Positions 6,788-21,421 of a stretch of 22,152 nt of DNA are shown one piece after another. The notes beneath the pieces are model-generated. The model did not search any database. It was not told the origin of the DNA and saw only the letters and a list, made by a program, of their open reading frames with translations. Positions within the stretch are counted from its first letter, which is position 1. Each line of letters begins with the position of its first letter. The translations under genes were made by a program, and so were the position numbers. This DNA is from a virus. The stretch spans positions 1 through 22,152 of the IMG/VR virus record IMGVR_UViG_3300027580_000028. One strand, 5' to 3'.

Positions 6788-7001
6788 CGGCGTACTCCTC
6801 CAGTGTCGTCGGCGAGCCCGTCTCGCCGTTGTAGTCCTCTGGCGTCCCTCCATCGCGGAGCAGCGCGACGACCTCGTCGTAGTCCTCCGGCGGGCGGCCG
6901 ACGATCTCCTCGAACTCGTTGCGGTGCTTCCGCCCGTGCGACGACATCCCGGCCGGGCTCTTTGTCGAGAAGTCACAGATGCGGCAGCCGTACCTCGTCA
7001 T
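6780..7001 (-). CDS. C2H2 zinc-finger protein (73 aa)
   Basis: 73 residues. The N-terminus is a C2H2 finger, C6-x2-C9-x12-H22-x3-H26, with the hydrophobic F and aromatic positions expected of this fold. An acidic tail (GRPPEDYDEVVALLRDGG) follows. The ATG at 7001 overlaps the stop of the upstream gene (ATGA), which decides the start over a much longer but basic and low-complexity upstream frame. A DNA- or protein-binding role is likely. Confidence 0.82.
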   Translation of the reverse strand: MTRYGCRICDFSTKSPAGMSSHGRKHRNEFEEIVGRPPEDYDEVVALLRDGGTPEDYNGETGSPTTLEEYADD

Positions 7002-7450
7002 CGGTTCGCCCCCACGACGGCGCCCTCCTGTCTGCTCCACGAGACCGCCTCGCCGTCCTCGTCGACGAGTACCGCCACTGACTCGGCGTCGCGCTCGGCG
7101 GCCACCTCCCGGCGCCCCGCCGGCGTCATCCCGGCCTGCGCGAGCCCCTCGCCCTGCTCTTCGAGCTCCTCCCGACGCTCCTGGAGCGCGTCGAGGACGT
7201 CGTCGCGAGGGTCGCGACCCTCTCGGCGAGCCAGCCAGCGCTCCACGCCTTCCCAGTAGTCGACAAGCTCGCGCGTCGCGATGCCACGGATGCGGGCAAG
7301 GATCAGTTCGCCGGTCGTCCCGGCGCCGGTGTCGATGTCGATCTCCTCGACGAGGAACCGTGCCGGGTTTTCTCCCAGCCGGGCGGACTCCTCGGCGTTG
7401 AGGTTCGGCACCTCGGTCGCCTGCTCGTTGTGCTGGCCGGTGGCCGGCAT
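6998..7450 (-). CDS. Hypothetical protein (150 aa), downstream of MCM
   Basis: 150 residues from MPATGQHNEQ. A central charged helical region (ARFLVEEIDI, ELVDYWEGVERWLARREG, ALQERREELEEQGEGLAQAG) suggests coiled-coil character. The C-terminus ends in a short beta-like stretch (ESVAVLVDEDGEAVSWSR). No catalytic motif is seen. It starts one base after the MCM stop, with a GAGGTG Shine-Dalgarno 7 bases ahead, so it is expressed with MCM. A role as an MCM accessory factor is only a guess from position. Confidence 0.75.
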   Translation of the reverse strand: MPATGQHNEQATEVPNLNAEESARLGENPARFLVEEIDIDTGAGTTGELILARIRGIATRELVDYWEGVERWLARREGRDPRDDVLDALQERREELEEQGEGLAQAGMTPAGRREVAAERDAESVAVLVDEDGEAVSWSRQEGAVVGANR

Positions 7451-9574
7451 CTAAGAACACCTCAGCGAACCCTCGCCGCTCGGGTGGTACACCTCGCCCT
7501 TGCGGTCGAGTTTGTCGATCTCATCAGCCGCCTTCGACCGAGTCATCCCGGCCTCCTTGGCGGCGTCGAGGACCTCACGCCGGCTCGCAGCCTCCTCCGG
7601 CGTACACAGCTCGTCGATGATGTCCTTGATGCGCTCGATGCGCTCCTTCTGTGACTTCGGCGTCCCTTTGCCCGTGCGCTCGGCGTCGAACTTCCCCGTC
7701 TCGGGGTCGTAGTTGAGTCCGACGACGTTCTTCGTGATGCGGATGGCGCGCTCGACGTGGCGCGGCTCGACCGTCTCGGAGAGCTCGGCGCGAGCGAAGC
7801 CGACCGACAGACGGATGCCCGCCTCGAGGCGCCGGGGTGTTGCCGGCACCGGGTCGTCGGCGCCGTCGTTGAGCGAACGGACGTCGATGTACGACTCCTT
7901 CAGCAACTCCTTCGCGGCGGGCGTCAGCGTGGGGAAGACGTTCTCGCGAGCGTACACCAGCATCGCCCGGAAGACCTCCATCGGCACCGGCGGGTCGATC
8001 GCCGTCTCCTCCGGCACGTCGATCTCGACGCCGCGGTTCTCGAGCTCCTGACGGCTCGCGTCGTCCCACGTATCGAGGACGTGGTCGGCGAGCTTCGCGT
8101 CCGTCTCCGGGTCGGGGATGTCTTGGACGGCGAGCAGGACGTCCATCCGGTCGATGAGCGCATCGTCGAGGTCGATCTGGTCGGCCATCGGCTCGTGCCG
8201 GTCGAACCGTCCGTGGACGGGGTTGCCCGACGCGAGCAGCGCCGTCCGCGTCGGCAGGTCGGCCGTGATGCCGGCCTTGTCGACCTTGACCATCTGGTCG
8301 CCCTCGAGGGCGTCGTGCATCGACTTCGTCTTCTCGTCGACGACATCGTCAACCTCGTCGATGATACAGTGGCCGCCGTTGGCTCGTGGCAGAATCCCAG
8401 GGGAGAGCGTCCACTCGGTCGTGCCGGCGAACTCCTCCTGGACGGCCGCGGCCGTGAGCCCGATCTTCGAGAGGCCGGTCCCGGAGCGGAACTCCGACTT
8501 CGGTGCGATCTCGTTCAGCCGGCTCAGGATGGTCGACTTCCCGCGGCCGGGGTCGCCGATGAGTCCGAAGTGGAGGTCGCCACGGTAGCTCCCGAGGTCG
8601 TTGTCGATGCGGTAGGCGTTGAACAGCCACGCCACCGACGCCTCGAACACTGTGTCGAGCTCGTCGTCGGCGAGGATCTGCGGGGCGATGCTGTCGGCGA
8701 GCTGGTCGACGCAGTCCTCCTGGTCGGCCAGCGTCTCGAAGTCGTCGCGATGCGCCTCGACGTCGACGTCGTCGTAGTCGTCGCTCTCGAACGCGATGGC
8801 GTGGGCGTCGATCCACGTCGTCGTCTCGGGGTCGGCGTTCCGTCCCTGGAGGTCGCCCTCGTTGACACGCAGCTTCCCGAGGATGACCGCCTGCTCGCCA
8901 CTTCGGTCGGGGAGGCCGTTCTCGCCGCCGTAGTCGCAGAGGTCGTCCTCGACGAACACCGGGATCGACTCGCCCTCGACGTCCGGGCGCTCGCCCGGAA
9001 GCTCGACCAGCTGAACCTTCCGCTGGTCGACGAACTCCGACTCGTCGACGGTGAGGCTCCACGGCCCCTGCCGCTCGCAGCCGGCGCACTCGTGCGGCTC
9101 CTGGACGCGGTTGCGGCCCTGCGGGATGTAGGTCGGTGTCCCGCAGCGCTGGCACTCGTAGGCCGCCCCGACGAGCCGCGGCGCCGTCCCGGTGACCTTC
9201 GACACCTGCCCCCGGACTGCGACGTAGTCGCCGATGTCATCGGCCGGATTGAGTTCCGGGATCGACCGCGTCTCGAGTGCGCCCTCGCTGTCCGTGAGAC
9301 GGACGTGCGCGTTCGCGAGTTCGACGTCCGCCGGGAGGTCGAACAGTCGGAGTGCCTCCTCTGCGTACTGTCGCATCTGCTCCGGCTCGTCGAGCCAGTC
9401 GTCGACGAGGTCGCGGTCGTAGCGGTAGAGGTCGTCCGCCTCGATGTATAGGGAGCGCTGCTCCCGTGGGTAGTGCTGGGCGAGCTCGCCGATCTCGTCG
9501 CGGTAGTACGTCTGATAGAACTCGAGGAACTGGTCCGTGAGCGTCGCCGTCTCACCCTGGACCGTAGCGCTCAT
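7451..9574 (-). CDS. mcm: MCM replicative helicase (viral)
   Basis: 707 residues, a full-length archaeal-type MCM. The N-terminal domain has an OB fold and zinc ribbon (C141, C144, C163, C166). The AAA+ domain shows Walker A GDPGRGKST (340-348), Walker B CIIDE (403-407), sensor 1 ASGNP (N451), an arginine finger in LIDRMD (R476) and sensor 2 in ATPRRLEAGIR (R581/R582). A C-terminal winged helix (about 655-700) follows. MCM rings unwind DNA 3' to 5' at the fork. All catalytic residues are present, so the protein should be active and would make the virus partly independent of the host helicase. It overlaps the upstream coiled-coil protein by four bases. No origin-binding Cdc6 or primase gene is visible in this window. 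Confidence 0.97.
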   Translation of the reverse strand: MSATVQGETATLTDQFLEFYQTYYRDEIGELAQHYPREQRSLYIEADDLYRYDRDLVDDWLDEPEQMRQYAEEALRLFDLPADVELANAHVRLTDSEGALETRSIPELNPADDIGDYVAVRGQVSKVTGTAPRLVGAAYECQRCGTPTYIPQGRNRVQEPHECAGCERQGPWSLTVDESEFVDQRKVQLVELPGERPDVEGESIPVFVEDDLCDYGGENGLPDRSGEQAVILGKLRVNEGDLQGRNADPETTTWIDAHAIAFESDDYDDVDVEAHRDDFETLADQEDCVDQLADSIAPQILADDELDTVFEASVAWLFNAYRIDNDLGSYRGDLHFGLIGDPGRGKSTILSRLNEIAPKSEFRSGTGLSKIGLTAAAVQEEFAGTTEWTLSPGILPRANGGHCIIDEVDDVVDEKTKSMHDALEGDQMVKVDKAGITADLPTRTALLASGNPVHGRFDRHEPMADQIDLDDALIDRMDVLLAVQDIPDPETDAKLADHVLDTWDDASRQELENRGVEIDVPEETAIDPPVPMEVFRAMLVYARENVFPTLTPAAKELLKESYIDVRSLNDGADDPVPATPRRLEAGIRLSVGFARAELSETVEPRHVERAIRITKNVVGLNYDPETGKFDAERTGKGTPKSQKERIERIKDIIDELCTPEEAASRREVLDAAKEAGMTRSKAADEIDKLDRKGEVYHPSGEGSLRCS

Positions 9575-10134
9575 GCGCCACCCCCGTCGCCGCCGAACGC
9601 CTCAGCCACCGGCTGCTCGTTGCCTGCGCGTCGCTGGGTGTCGGCGTGCATCTGTTGCATGAAGTTCGTGTTCAGCAGGTCGCGCTCCTGGTCGGCCGCG
9701 CGCTGCTTCAGGTCGTAGAGCACTTCCTCATTCGACCGGCCGTGCTCGCCGCGGATGTCGTCGACACGCGGGTGCGTCGCCCACACCTGCGGGAAGTCGC
9801 CGGCCTCCATCTCGTCGAGGAGTGTGTCGAGGGCGTCCTCGTAGCTGCCCTCCTCGTCGACCTTGTCCTCGCGGAGCTCGCGAATCTCGTCGAGGTCGTC
9901 CTTCAGCTGGGCGACGCGATCACGGTGTTCGCGAGCCTGTTCGAGTTCCTGCTCAAGGCGCTCCTCTTTCCGCCGGATCTTCCGGTCGATGACGGCGACG
10001 GAGTCGTTGCTGTTGACCCCGAGCTCACGCTCGAGAGCAGAGATGACGACCTGCTTGTTCGATCGGTCGTCCTCGTCGACCAGGTACTTCAGCGACGCCG
10101 GGATCTCGGCGACGAGCCGCTCCTCGTCGCTCAC
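9571..10134 (-). CDS. Ribbon-helix-helix/coiled-coil protein, GTG start
   Basis: 187 residues. The N-terminus (LVAEIPASLKYLVDEDD then SNKQVVISALEREL) fits a ribbon-helix-helix DNA-binding fold. About 46-95 is a long charged coiled coil (KIRRKEERLEQELEQAREHRD). The rest is acidic and helical. The start is the GTG at 10134: a strong GGGAGGTG Shine-Dalgarno at 10148-10141 lies 6 bases ahead, while an upstream in-frame GTG (10143) overlaps that site. It directly precedes MCM with an ATGA overlap. The gene lies next to the TGTACA repeat array, so it may bind those repeats as an autoregulator or replication factor; this is inference. Confidence 0.83.
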   Translation of the reverse strand: MSDEERLVAEIPASLKYLVDEDDRSNKQVVISALERELGVNSNDSVAVIDRKIRRKEERLEQELEQAREHRDRVAQLKDDLDEIRELREDKVDEEGSYEDALDTLLDEMEAGDFPQVWATHPRVDDIRGEHGRSNEEVLYDLKQRAADQERDLLNTNFMQQMHADTQRRAGNEQPVAEAFGGDGGGA

Positions 10135-10233
10135 GCCAACCACCTCCCGTGTACACCTTCTCCCTCAATGTACAATGTACATTCTAATGTATAATGTACA
10201 TCTAAGTTGTGAGTAAAGTATGTAGTAAGGCGG
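10135..10233 (-). promoter_or_regulatory. Promoter and Shine-Dalgarno region of the MCM operon
   Basis: An unusually AT-rich 99-base gap in a GC-rich region. On the minus strand, AT-rich elements such as CATTATACATTAG (within the repeat array) could act as a TATA box. The gap ends with the GGGAGGTG ribosome-binding site that fixes the GTG start at 10134. GTAAAGTA and GTAGTAAGG elements lie at 10213-10230. Confidence 0.5.
10149..10206 (+). repeat. TGTACA repeat array / 19-bp direct repeats (operator or iterons)
   Basis: TGTACA occurs at 10150, 10169, 10176 and 10195, with TGTATA at 10188. Two 19-base units (10169-10187 and 10188-10206) share TGTA-Y-AATGTACAT, and the outer site at 10150 keeps the same 19-base phase. 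Several sites are palindromic (GTGTACAC, AATGTACATT, ATGTACAT). The array lies between the zinc-protein gene and the ribbon-helix-helix/MCM genes and covers the likely promoter. It is either an operator array or replication iterons. Confidence 0.75.
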
Positions 10234-10467
10234 TTAGACACGGCGGTACACCTCCGTGGATTCGGTGGCGTTGGGAGCATCTGGGTCGTGTTCGTGGACG
10301 GCGATGCGACCACAGCGGGCGCAGTCGACGTCGATCTCGGCAGGATACTCGTCCGGACTGTACGACCAGCAGAAGTGGCTCACCGCGTGACAGCAGGCGC
10401 TGACGTACGGCTGGGCAGAATCGTTGATCGCCTGGCGTTGCGACTCCGCAAGCTGCGCCTCAGACAT
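10234..10467 (-). CDS. Small zinc-binding protein (77 aa)
   Basis: 77 residues from MSEAQLAESQ. A Cys cluster SACCHAVSHFCW (C25, C26, H27, C33) and a knuckle CARC (C49/C52) form a likely zinc site. The C-terminus is acidic. It overlaps the upstream 46-residue zinc gene by 8 bases. Function is unknown; a role in nucleic-acid or protein binding is typical for such proteins. Confidence 0.8.
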   Translation of the reverse strand: MSEAQLAESQRQAINDSAQPYVSACCHAVSHFCWSYSPDEYPAEIDVDCARCGRIAVHEHDPDAPNATESTEVYRRV

Positions 10468-10600: not shown

Positions 10601-10792
10601 CTACGCGGACACCTCCGTTCCCGCGGCCGCCGCAGCGGTCGCTATCGCGGCATGTGGTGTAACTACCTGACTCTCGACAGGACGCACAACCCCACCGGGG
10701 TGCGGATCCGCGTGGGATTGTTCAGAAACTTGATAGAGCCAGGGCAGGGATGTGGGAATTATGTTTACAATCCCTGCGCTCCACCAGCCTGT
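10601..10792. promoter_or_regulatory. Divergent promoter region between the left operon and integrase 1
   Basis: The gap contains the Shine-Dalgarno of the 10460-10600 gene and an AT-rich block ATTATGTTTACAA at 10759-10770. On the plus strand this block sits about 26-30 bases ahead of the integrase ATG, as expected for a TATA box of a leaderless transcript. It is bracketed by the inverted repeat GCAGGGAT (10744-10751) / ATCCCTGC (10770-10777), a candidate operator or recombinase arm site. Confidence 0.5.
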
Positions 10793-12013
10793 ATGTCGAC
10801 GCGAGATCCCCGAGACGCCGTCGAGGGCCTCCGTGAGCGGATTCGCGAACGGAAGCGAGACGTCACTGACGAGGACGCTGAGGCTCTGATTACCTTCTCC
10901 GACCAGCTCGACCTGATGAAGAGCGAGTACTCTGACTACCGGCACCTCAAGCTCCTCCGCCACTGTACGCGGATGGCCGAGGCGACCGACCAGCTCGCCG
11001 ACGCCGCTCACGATCGCGACGCCGCCGAGGCTGTCGTCCGGTGGATCAACCGCGAGTACGACAACGAGGAGACGAACCGAGACTACCGGTCCGCCATCCG
11101 CGTCTTCGCGAAGCGCGTCCGTCGCCTCGACGAGTCTCCCGAGAGCGTCGCCTGGATCCCGACCGGTACCTCGAGCAGCTACGACCCGACGCCGAGCGAG
11201 CGCGACCTCCTCCTCTTCGAGGAGGACGTCAAGCCGATGATCGACGCCTGCCGGAACACCCGGGACGCAGCGTGTATCATGCTCCAGTTCGAGGCCGGAC
11301 TCCGCGGCGGCGAGCTCCAGTCGCTCACCGTCGGCGACATCGTCGACAGCGAACACGCCCTCGCTGTCCACGCTGACGGCAAGGAGGGCGAGCGCGTCGT
11401 CCACCTGGTCGTCTCCGTCCCGTACATCAACAAGTGGCTGAACGACCACCCCGCCGGCGACGATCCCGACGCGCCGCTCTGGTCCCACCTCTCGAAGCCC
11501 GAGGCGCAGAGCTACACCAGCTACCTGAGCAATTTCAAGGAGCCGGCAAAGCGGATCGACCTCTCGAAGGACGTCACACCGACCAACTTCCGCCGGTCGA
11601 ACACGCGGTGGCTCGTCCTCCAGGGCATGAGCCAGTCGCGTATCGAGGACCGACAAGGTCGGAAGCGCGGCTCCGAAGCGACCCAGCGGTACATGGCTCG
11701 GTTCGGCGAGGAGTCGAACGAACGCGCCTACGCGTCGATGCACGGACTCGACGTCGAGGAGGATCCCGACGGCGACGACCACGCGCCGCTCACCTGCCCG
11801 CGGTGTGACCGGGAGACGCCCCGGGACAACGACTACTGCGTCTGGTGTCACCAGGCGCTCTCGCCCGAGGCTGCCGAGCGTGTCGAAGAGGTCGACGAGG
11901 CCATGTTCGAGTCCGGCGTCGAAACTGACGACCCCGAGGTTGCGGAGGACCTCCGGACTGTCAACCGGCGGATCACGGCGCCGGTCAAGCATCTGATGGC
12001 CAACGACGAGTGA
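10793..12013 (+). CDS. Tyrosine recombinase/integrase 1 with C-terminal zinc ribbon
   Basis: 406 residues from MSTRDPRDAV. An N-terminal helical core-binding domain (about 35-110) is followed by the catalytic domain: first arginine in FEAGLRGGELQSL (R171), a beta-hairpin lysine near K197, second arginine in TPTNFRRSN (R267) and nucleophile Y300 in GSEATQRYMARF. The usual histidines are missing: position 264 is Thr, and the 'LGH' box reads QGR. The C-terminus has a zinc ribbon (C335/C338, C349/C352), common in haloarchaeal integrases. The start at 10793 was chosen for the well-placed TATA-like block; the upstream open frame reads through the promoter region. It should integrate or excise the element, or resolve dimers. 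It is convergent with the next gene. Confidence 0.92.
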   Translation: MSTRDPRDAVEGLRERIRERKRDVTDEDAEALITFSDQLDLMKSEYSDYRHLKLLRHCTRMAEATDQLADAAHDRDAAEAVVRWINREYDNEETNRDYRSAIRVFAKRVRRLDESPESVAWIPTGTSSSYDPTPSERDLLLFEEDVKPMIDACRNTRDAACIMLQFEAGLRGGELQSLTVGDIVDSEHALAVHADGKEGERVVHLVVSVPYINKWLNDHPAGDDPDAPLWSHLSKPEAQSYTSYLSNFKEPAKRIDLSKDVTPTNFRRSNTRWLVLQGMSQSRIEDRQGRKRGSEATQRYMARFGEESNERAYASMHGLDVEEDPDGDDHAPLTCPRCDRETPRDNDYCVWCHQALSPEAAERVEEVDEAMFESGVETDDPEVAEDLRTVNRRITAPVKHLMANDE

Positions 12014-16152: not shown

Positions 16153-16437
16153 ATGAGTACAGCCCAACGACCCACTGACATGCGACAGCCGGCCGACTGG
16201 ATGGTGCCGTCCGACGATCGGATTTTGGAGTTGATCCGAGAGTACGGCAACCTCACGCCTATCGCCATTGAGGCAAAAGGCGGCCCAGTCCGGCAGTACG
16301 CGAGTGAGCGCTGTGGCGTGCTCGCGCGCCACGGCCTCCTTGAACAGGTCCACCGTGGGCTGTACGGACTCACCGACGACGGCCGCGCCTACCTCGACGA
16401 GGAACTCGACGCCGCCGAGCTCGAGCCGGTCGAGTAG
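16153..16437 (+). CDS. PhiH1-type winged-helix repressor
   Basis: 94 residues. From MRQPADWMVPSDDRILELIREYGN through RRGLYGLT-like HRGLYGLTDDGRAYLDEELDA the protein closely follows the haloarchaeal PhiH1 repressor family, winged-helix regulators first known from Halobacterium phage phiH. The recognition helix region is about 45-62 (VRQYASERCGVLARHGLL) and the wing follows (VHRGLYGLT). In phiH the repressor silences early lytic transcription. Here the gene is divergent from a ten-gene operon and next to inverted repeats, consistent with a lysogeny switch. It is convergent with the zinc-ribbon gene at 16440 (2-base gap). Many host paralogues of this family exist, so the role in immunity is inferred. 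Confidence 0.9.
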   Translation: MSTAQRPTDMRQPADWMVPSDDRILELIREYGNLTPIAIEAKGGPVRQYASERCGVLARHGLLEQVHRGLYGLTDDGRAYLDEELDAAELEPVE

Positions 16438-19732: not shown

Positions 19733-20089
19733 ATGAACGAGCAAGAGATGGCCGTCAAGGTCACGAAGTCAACTAAAAGCGTCCTCGATGTTCTCCACAA
19801 CGGACGGGCCACGCCAGGCCACATCGTCCAGGAGACGGACCTCTCGAGGCAGACAGTACACAGCCAGCTGAACCAACTTCTCGCCGGTGAGCACGTTCGG
19901 TATGTCCACGAGGGTACCGGCCTCTACGAGCTCGTCGACGACCCGCGCGACGACGTCGACCAGGAGGACGACGTCGAGGAGCTGAAGCGGCACGTCCGCG
20001 CCGCCGGCGAGGCGATCGAAGCGCAGGACGTCGACGCACTCCGTCGGCACGTCCGAGCAGCATGTGAGGTAATCGACGATGAACCCTGA
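19733..20089 (+). CDS. Winged-helix regulator with C-terminal repeat
   Basis: 118 residues. About 12-66 is a winged helix: TKSVLDVLHNGRATPGHIVQETDLSRQTVHSQLNQLL (helix-turn-helix, recognition helix about 38-51), then wing EHVRYVHEGTGLYELV. After an acidic linker, the C-terminus has two copies of a short helix: LKRHVRAAGEAIE (84-96) and LRRHVRAACEVID (103-115). It is the first gene of the plus-strand operon ending in integrase 2, next to the inverted repeats, so it may control integration or the divergent operon. Confidence 0.85.
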   Translation: MNEQEMAVKVTKSTKSVLDVLHNGRATPGHIVQETDLSRQTVHSQLNQLLAGEHVRYVHEGTGLYELVDDPRDDVDQEDDVEELKRHVRAAGEAIEAQDVDALRRHVRAACEVIDDEP

Positions 20090-20537
20090 CAAGACCCACA
20101 CCGCCGAGACGCCGGACGAAGACCCACGCGACGACCGGAACGAAGGCGAGGCGATCGCCTATGTCGACACACGCGACGTCGTCGACGACTATCTCTGGGA
20201 GCAGTACGGCTTCGGTCTCACGAAGGTCGAAGAGGAGCTCGCCGACCGGGCGATGACCGAGGAGCCGTGGGACGACGTCACCACCGAGCACGTCGCCGCG
20301 ATCTCGCCGAACGAGGTGACGGCCGGCGTCCACGTCCGGCGCGTCGACGTCGACGAGCGGATCGACGACATGCCGTTCATGGTCGAGCTCGAGCAGTACT
20401 TCCCACCCGAAGATGACCGCGCCGGCGACACGGTCGCACTCCACGGCGAGCACGCTCTCCTGGAGCTGATCGCCGCGCTCGCGCAGGTGATGGACGTCGT
20501 CGACGGCGCCGCAGCGGAGGCCGGCCAGTCAGCATGA
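20079..20537 (+). CDS. Hypothetical protein (152 aa) between regulator and integrase 2
   Basis: 152 acidic residues from MNPDKTHTAETPDED. A region DVVDDYLWEQYGFGLTKVEEELADRAMTEEP is followed by HVAAISPNEVTAGVHVRRVDVDERI and helical ALLELIAALAQVMDVVDGAAAEAG. No recognised motif. It overlaps the regulator gene by 11 bases and the integrase by 4 (ATGA), so the three are one transcript. It could be a directionality factor or integrase partner, but only position suggests this. Confidence 0.74.
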   Translation: MNPDKTHTAETPDEDPRDDRNEGEAIAYVDTRDVVDDYLWEQYGFGLTKVEEELADRAMTEEPWDDVTTEHVAAISPNEVTAGVHVRRVDVDERIDDMPFMVELEQYFPPEDDRAGDTVALHGEHALLELIAALAQVMDVVDGAAAEAGQSA

Positions 20538-21421
20538 CGGACATGGACTCCCGGCGCCGGCAGATCGCGCAGGGCATCCAGATCGGAGAGCACACGACGA
20601 TCAAGCAGTCCGCCGCTGAAGCCCTCGGCGGGCGGTCCGGTCGGTCGCACTCGCGCGACGACGCCCTCACGCCGCGGCAGTGGGAGCGGATGTTCCGTGC
20701 GAGTCACGACGTCGACGACGCAGACCGCGCGCTCGAATGCCGGATGCTCCACGTCGTCTGCGGTCGCCTCGGCCTCCGATGCGGCGAGGCGACGCACCTT
20801 CACGAGGACTGGGTCGACTGGAACGACGGATCGATCCGCATCCCTCAGTACTGGGAGTGTACGAAAAGCAAGCACGACGACCCCTGTGGCTACTGCCGCG
20901 GGAGAGCTCGCGACAACCTCGACAGCCACAACCTCACGCAGGACGAGGCGATCGACGCGATCGTCGCGCACCTGGACGACGAGGTCGTCTCATCGATGAC
21001 GGACGAAGAGATCATCGAGGAGGCGGAGAGCCTCCGCGAGGAGGTGAACATGACCTTCGAGGAGATGCTCGAAGAGCAGTGGTCGCCCAAGACGCCGACG
21101 TCGGCGCGGGCGGTCCCGTTCGACTTCGCACCGCGCATCGAGCTGGTGATCGAGCGCTTCTTCGAGCGGTTCGACGAGTTCGAACGGAGCTTCGCCACGA
21201 TCCACCGCCGGATCGACCGGCTGGCAGAGCTCGCCGAGATCGACTCGAACGTGTATCCTCACGCACTTCGAGCCACCAGCGCGTCGTTCCACGCCTCGCG
21301 GGACATCTCTGTCCACGCCCTGATGTCGATCATGGGGTGGAGCGACCCCGGAACGGCCCGGGTGTACATCCGCTCGAACGACGAGAAGGCGGCCCGCGAG
21401 ATCCGCGGGAAACACCAGTGA
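20534..21421 (+). CDS. Tyrosine recombinase/integrase 2
   Basis: 295 residues. The catalytic domain shows R82 in CGRLGLRCGEATHL, a lysine candidate in SPKTPTSAR (K186), the HxxR box YPHALRATSASF (H243, R246), MGWSDPGTARVYIR with W269 and nucleophile Y278. The insertion at 108-128 carries a knuckle DDPCGYC (C118, C121; with C109), and 150-185 is a long acidic helical insert, making it unlike integrase 1. The N-terminal core-binding domain is short (about 20-75). It is the last gene of its operon and is convergent with the right-edge gene. It probably catalyses integration/excision of this element. Confidence 0.9.
   Translation: MTDMDSRRRQIAQGIQIGEHTTIKQSAAEALGGRSGRSHSRDDALTPRQWERMFRASHDVDDADRALECRMLHVVCGRLGLRCGEATHLHEDWVDWNDGSIRIPQYWECTKSKHDDPCGYCRGRARDNLDSHNLTQDEAIDAIVAHLDDEVVSSMTDEEIIEEAESLREEVNMTFEEMLEEQWSPKTPTSARAVPFDFAPRIELVIERFFERFDEFERSFATIHRRIDRLAELAEIDSNVYPHALRATSASFHASRDISVHALMSIMGWSDPGTARVYIRSNDEKAAREIRGKHQ

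Follow-up and report, generated by a model that had tools for sequence, protein, structure and literature searches.

A 19-bp-phased array of palindromic boxes beside the RHH-coiled-coil and MCM genes of a virus: a candidate replication origin and operator

A cluster of short palindromic boxes directly ahead of a small gene and an MCM helicase gene raises the question of whether the boxes serve to start replication, to control transcription or both. The stretch of DNA analysed here (the window), from a virus of haloarchaea, is an IMG/VR record 22,152 bases long, and its replication region is akin to those of the haloarchaeal tailed viruses BJ1 and Humcor1. Read along the minus strand, the region comprises a 77-residue ORF without a family match (10234..10467), a G-poor tract, the array, a ribosome-binding-like GGAGGTG recognized by inspection (10141..10147), the GTG start (10134) of a gene for a 187-residue protein that is the putative array binder (9571..10134) and the MCM gene (7451..9574; PF00493, E = 2.9e-54; PHROG 10371, E = 4e-194), the start of which overlaps the stop of the preceding gene by 4 nt. 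A 150-residue protein of PHROG 26506 is encoded on the same strand directly after MCM (6998..7450), and a tyrosine integrase gene lies upstream of the module on the plus strand (10790..12013), as in BJ1 and Humcor1. The window also carries, near its other end, a second tyrosine recombinase gene (20534-21421, plus strand) that follows a MarR-like gene (19733-20089), and a gene for a small HTH-type regulator (16153-16437, plus strand; PHROG 2440, transcription regulation) that is possibly part of a lysogeny region.

The array contains five TGTA[C/T]A sites at 10150, 10169, 10176, 10188 and 10195 (start differences of 19, 7, 12 and 7), exactly where a sequence-only reading of this DNA had placed them, and the two full direct repeats of that reading are likewise borne out as 16 nt segments that are 94% identical and 19 bp apart (10167-10182 and 10186-10201). 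Each repeat contains a 15-bp palindrome of the form ATGTAyA-n-TGTACAT. The dyad that comes first in the coding sense (ATGTATAATGTACAT on the plus strand, 10187..10201) is made up of boxes TGTATA (10188-10193) and TGTACA (10195-10200); the second, 19 bp away, is a perfect palindrome (ATGTACAATGTACAT, 10168..10182) with boxes at 10169-10174 and 10176-10181, and the fifth box, a single TGTACA (10150..10155), keeps the phase at 19 bp from the first box of this second dyad. Elsewhere in the window there are only three TGTA[C/T]A sites, all isolated. The observed numbers of sites, dyads and 19-bp pairs were each reached in 0 of 20,000 dinucleotide shuffles of the 90-bp gap. A scan for the four-box geometry, using any palindromic hexamer (all 64) with boxes at 0, 7/8, 18-20 and a further 7/8 (maximum score 24), gave the array as the single match in the window, with a score of 23; 1.78 Mb of Markov-shuffled sequence gave no match of 23 or above and one of 22.

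The array is abutted, at a distance of 2 nt, by a segment of 36 nt (10203..10238) that contains no more than a single C when read on the plus strand and is thus G-poor in the coding sense (CTTACTACATACTTTACTCACAACTTA). No other stretch of the window that is poor in G or C is as long, and this one, which the sequence-only reading had not mentioned, extends 5 nt into the end of the 77-residue ORF. Phased repeats beside the gene of a presumed initiator, with an AT-rich and G-poor tract alongside, are features of an iteron-type origin. The position of the array on the minus strand upstream of the gene pair, where the promoter or leader of the putative binder's gene would lie, is that of an operator. 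GC skew gave no clear origin signal at the array, and scans for sigma-70 promoters, which are not the archaeal promoter type, and for intrinsic terminators found nothing there.

The sequence-only reading had described the neighbouring gene as a ribbon-helix-helix (RHH) protein joined to a coiled coil, and the 187-residue product is assigned an RHH-like N terminus with a predicted strand (RLVAEIP), a long coiled-coil helix spanning residues 42-111 and a small C-terminal helical domain; we refer to proteins of this architecture as RHH-CC. The RHH part of the description is supported for relatives and was not recovered by direct detection in the window protein, for which there was no RHH match in Pfam, no PDB fold matched by its model in Foldseek and no support for an RHH fold from a PDB sequence search. 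One relative (L196) passes the RHH_1 cut-off (21.9 versus 20.5 bits), HFTV1 gp55 matches Arc weakly, and hhalign relates window-type N termini to clearer RHH N termini with a probability of 64% (E = 6.5e-5). An AF2 model of the monomer contains helices at 13-19 and 24-38 and no strand; the RHH fold normally forms only as a dimer. The support for an RHH fold in the 187-residue protein is thus indirect. Searches of phage and plasmid record collections with this protein gave no matches, so homologues were taken from IMG/VR, GTDB genomes and gene neighbourhood.

Were the array bound by the adjacent protein, the two might be expected at homologous loci together. Among close relatives, the array of the window (type A) is kept at the same position in L001, L002 and L004, the proteins of which are 90-98% identical; the single in-phase box is kept in L004 and is absent from type-B relatives. 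In L003/L010, L005 and L011 the same place is taken by a different palindromic array of type B (CCTATAnTATAGG) in the same 19-bp phase, made up of CCCTATAnTATAGGG or TCCTATAgTATAGGA and then a second TATAGGR half 19 bp on. The type-B proteins are ~91-92% (L003/L010), 72-73% (L011) and 46% (L005) identical to that of the window, and the predicted DNA-contacting strand is RLVAEIP in type A versus TLYVEIP in type B; by alignment to Arc and CopG we take the contacting residues to be R, V and E in the former and T, Y and E in the latter. A comparison of the window with L003 gives 69% identity for the upstream gene, 33% for the array region, 49% for codons 1-13 and 89% for the rest of the protein, whereas L003 and L011, both of type B, are 61% identical over the array region and 76% over codons 1-13, against 33% for the upstream gene. 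The array region and the first ~13 codons thus change together, and array and strand behave as one unit.

Family alignment places RHH-CC genes in further haloarchaeal genomes, several of them adjoining an MCM gene, and five halovirus isolates have a gene of this architecture immediately ahead of MCM (HSTV-1 ORF44, HRTV-29 gp15, HATV-3 gp66, BLv36 ORF21 and HFTV1 gp55). Three highly diverged proteins with a strand of the form R-x-V-x-E/D (G236, HSTV-1 and G128) all have TGTACA arrays. The geometry also occurs with other boxes: GATATC at 0, 8, 19 and 27 in G045 and TCTAGA at 0, 7, 19 and 26 in G052, with one box mismatched; the array of G256 is likewise of TCTAGA. TGTACA also accompanies RHH-CC proteins whose contact residues differ (G201 and G276), so any code relating strand to box is not one-to-one. 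In 297 kb of real sequence, from loci picked by protein homology and not by array (apart from G201 and G236, which were also met in a pattern scan), seven sites score at least 22 at phases 18-19 and all lie beside RHH-CC genes; when phases 15-31 were scanned, the sole score-22 match outside 18-19, at phase 25, came from the HSTV-1 array read again in an overlapping register. The strict palindrome geometry misses type B, HRTV-29, HATV-3, BLv36, G276, G066 and G221, in which the repeats were read by eye, and a four-box scan of the RHH-CC/MCM modules L179, L192, L194, L196 and L200 found no array.

The dyad by itself occurs in six of 391 haloarchaeal genomes, of which two have it with RHH-CC genes, one with an RHH antitoxin and three with nothing relevant. 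In the antitoxin case (G386:C8:67253; L036 ~1440-1570), ATGTACATTGTACAT stands right in front of an unrelated, antitoxin-like gene of the RHH type, with a gene for a PIN-like toxin behind it; the dyad is hence shared by two RHH families. Searched as ATGTACAN{1,2}TGTACAT in viral_contigs, the dyad matched at least 120 contigs and was set aside as too short by itself in that collection. In G273, several TTGTACAA inverted repeats lie ~500-700 bp upstream of the RHH-CC/MCM module (L183:750-1000), outside the four-box geometry.

The gap that holds the array is AT-rich (GC 39% versus 66% for the window), the AT fraction local to the array is 0.55 against an average of 0.34, and it could be supposed that the boxes are chance AT-rich repeats, or a promoter element common to haloviruses, in which RHH-CC has no part. 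The failure of shuffling to reach the observed counts, the confinement of high-scoring matches to the neighbourhood of RHH-CC genes and the joint change of array and N-terminal codons make such an explanation hardly credible. A check for the repeats at homologous loci, as the sequence-only reading had advised, finds them kept or exchanged for others of the same phase in close homologues, and finds arrays of the same geometry beside the genes of distant ones. The pairing of the array with the adjacent RHH-CC protein is therefore well supported by sequence comparison, and it is very likely that RHH-CC binds this array.

What such binding would achieve is a separate matter, on which the position of the arrays bears. 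In the window, in L001-L005 and L011 and in G236, G045, G052 and G256, the array closely precedes the RHH-CC start. It lies between RHH-CC and MCM in HSTV-1, with a similar arrangement in HRTV-29, and the repeat arrays of G201, G276, G066 and G221 are downstream of RHH-CC in non-coding DNA. In this region of HSTV-1 (26168-26258; L171:2390-2480) the annotated MCM start (26195) falls inside the TGTACA array, and the likely start of that gene is an ATG at 26258, after a CTACTACA repeat tract. The array could be an autoregulatory operator and nothing else, with RHH-CC dimers over the promoter repressing the RHH-CC/MCM operon, replication starting elsewhere and the 19-bp geometry reflecting two cooperative RHH sites. 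Autorepression is usual for RHH proteins, the array is at the start of the gene in the window clade and several others, and the unrelated antitoxin operon of G386 carries the same dyad before its start codon. However, the arrays of HSTV-1 and of four plasmid or chromosomal contigs, downstream of RHH-CC, serve no RHH-CC promoter, which would be unexpected of an operator for its own gene only, and a purely regulatory role leaves both the abutting G-free tracts and the distribution of Orc1/Cdc6 unexplained. We consider this explanation possible but less likely than not.

When tracts containing no more than one G (or one C) are ranked by length within the sequence searched, the top one is found at or close to the array in seven of 12 cases, namely the window, HSTV-1, G201, G066, G221 and, within 7-kb loci, HATV-3 and HRTV-29; the rank of the tract at the array is third for G236, fourth for G052 and low for G045, G256 and G128. 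The contig G221:C23, which carries RHH-CC and a repeat array, has ends that overlap by 127 bp and is hence probably a circular plasmid of 39 kb. Among the matches listed for its ORFs of at least 90 residues that pass a composition filter, there is no Orc1/Cdc6, MCM, ParA or recognized Rep. This contig (L218, L219) also bears genes for conjugation, and some of its matches are to families of defence systems (DISARM DrmD, KwaA and KwaB-like). The presence of RHH-CC and array on plasmids might suggest a centromere-like partition site, with RHH-CC as a centromere binder of the ParG, omega or ParR kind that segregates a plasmid prophage, and such sites typically combine multi-box arrays with RHH proteins. 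Against this, no ParA-type ATPase (PF13614) was found in the window, its relatives G003-G006, the five virus isolates or G221:C23, and the conserved partner in viruses is MCM, so that a partition role appears very unlikely.

The distribution of Orc1/Cdc6 lends some weight to the origin reading. Homologues are present in BJ1 (ORF16; TIGR02928, E = 2e-35, under the cut-off of that model), Humcor1 and HJTV-4, the three MCM-encoding isolates in which the gene before MCM is not RHH-CC, and searches with Cdc6_C, TIGR02928 and for BJ1-ORF16-like proteins found none in the window, G003-G006 or the five RHH-CC isolates. A TIGR02928 match inside the MCM gene of BLv36 (10 bits) was rejected as spurious. 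Orc1/Cdc6 thus occurs in three of three MCM isolates without RHH-CC versus none of five with it (Fisher p = 0.018, for isolates that are few and not independent). The proviruses G052 and G256 (L209 and L210), with TCTAGA arrays in leader-like positions and no top-ranked G-free tract, carry RHH-CC/MCM together with an Orc1/Cdc6 homologue 2-4 kb away, and replacement of Orc1/Cdc6 by RHH-CC is therefore not strict.

The sequence-only reading had offered an operator or iterons for an MCM partner. The variable position of the array, the G-free tract and the partly complementary occurrence of RHH-CC and Orc1/Cdc6 favour the origin, the promoter-like position in the window favours the operator, and the choice between them is not settled; both may apply. 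The array is probably a replication origin and an autoregulatory operator as well, since it covers the likely promoter and would probably repress RHH-CC and MCM too. We propose, as a reading that we regard as evenly balanced, that the array is the cognate multi-box site of the adjacent RHH-CC and marks a viral replication origin, with RHH-CC as its initiator. Binding of RHH dimers to the palindromic boxes would be cooperative, the two boxes of a pair being spaced by 7-8 bp and the pairs by 19 bp. By means of the array, RHH-CC would bring the virus's own MCM to the G-free tract in place of Orc1/Cdc6, recruiting it through the coiled coil or the C-terminal domain, and the DNA would open and the origin fire at this tract. 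Where the array sits at the promoter, array-bound RHH-CC would in addition repress the RHH-CC/MCM operon.

The RHH proteins MetJ, omega repressor, Arc and CopG have operators of short, often palindromic boxes with repeats of ~7-8 bp. The array resembles these in its repeated short boxes, in the cooperative dimers proposed for it and in adjoining the protein's own gene, and differs in that its box pairs are in a 19-bp phase and are not tied to the promoter of the gene, and in that RHH-CC has a long coiled coil and a C-terminal domain and is encoded with MCM. In the iteron origins of bacterial plasmids, phased repeats are bound by a Rep initiator; the likeness lies in phased repeats by an initiator-like gene and a helicase gene, beside a tract of odd composition, whereas here the protein is RHH-like and not a winged-helix Rep, the helicase is an archaeal MCM and the origin role is read from sequence. 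With the Orc1/Cdc6-ORB origins of haloarchaea and of haloviruses that encode Orc1, such as BJ1, the window has in common MCM and a proposed initiator on one viral genome, but the window, its relatives and the five RHH-CC isolates are without Orc1/Cdc6. In Thermococcales viral MCMs, a fused N-terminal helix-turn-helix domain has been proposed to replace origin recognition by Orc1/Cdc6, and in some of these viruses the MCM locus encodes an RHH-like protein (PMC12934983). Both cases involve a viral MCM without Orc1/Cdc6 and a DNA-binding module as the proposed substitute; there the domain is fused to MCM (PMC12934983), whereas here RHH-CC is separate and has an identifiable DNA array. No description of these arrays was found in the open-access literature.

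These findings bear on how replication starts in MCM-encoding archaeal viruses without Orc1/Cdc6, which is an unsolved problem. They point to one specific protein and a precisely placed candidate site, and to a rule open to testing, namely that the geometry is fixed while the box sequence varies; all of this is available in HSTV-1, which is a virus isolate, and in a plasmid contig that is probably circular. More tentatively, and with slightly less than even confidence, we suggest that RHH-CC proteins may be an unrecognized class of initiators and MCM loaders of many haloarchaeal tailed viruses and plasmids, replacing Orc1/Cdc6, the origins of which would be paired palindromic hexamers in a 19-bp phase beside a G-free tract, with the hexamer re-specified through the contact strand. 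If true, this would add a new mode of replication initiation to those of archaeal viruses, and related replicons would use different, possibly incompatible, origins. It would also give a natural series of RHH proteins and sites in which to study changes of DNA specificity, and small replicons for haloarchaeal genetics.
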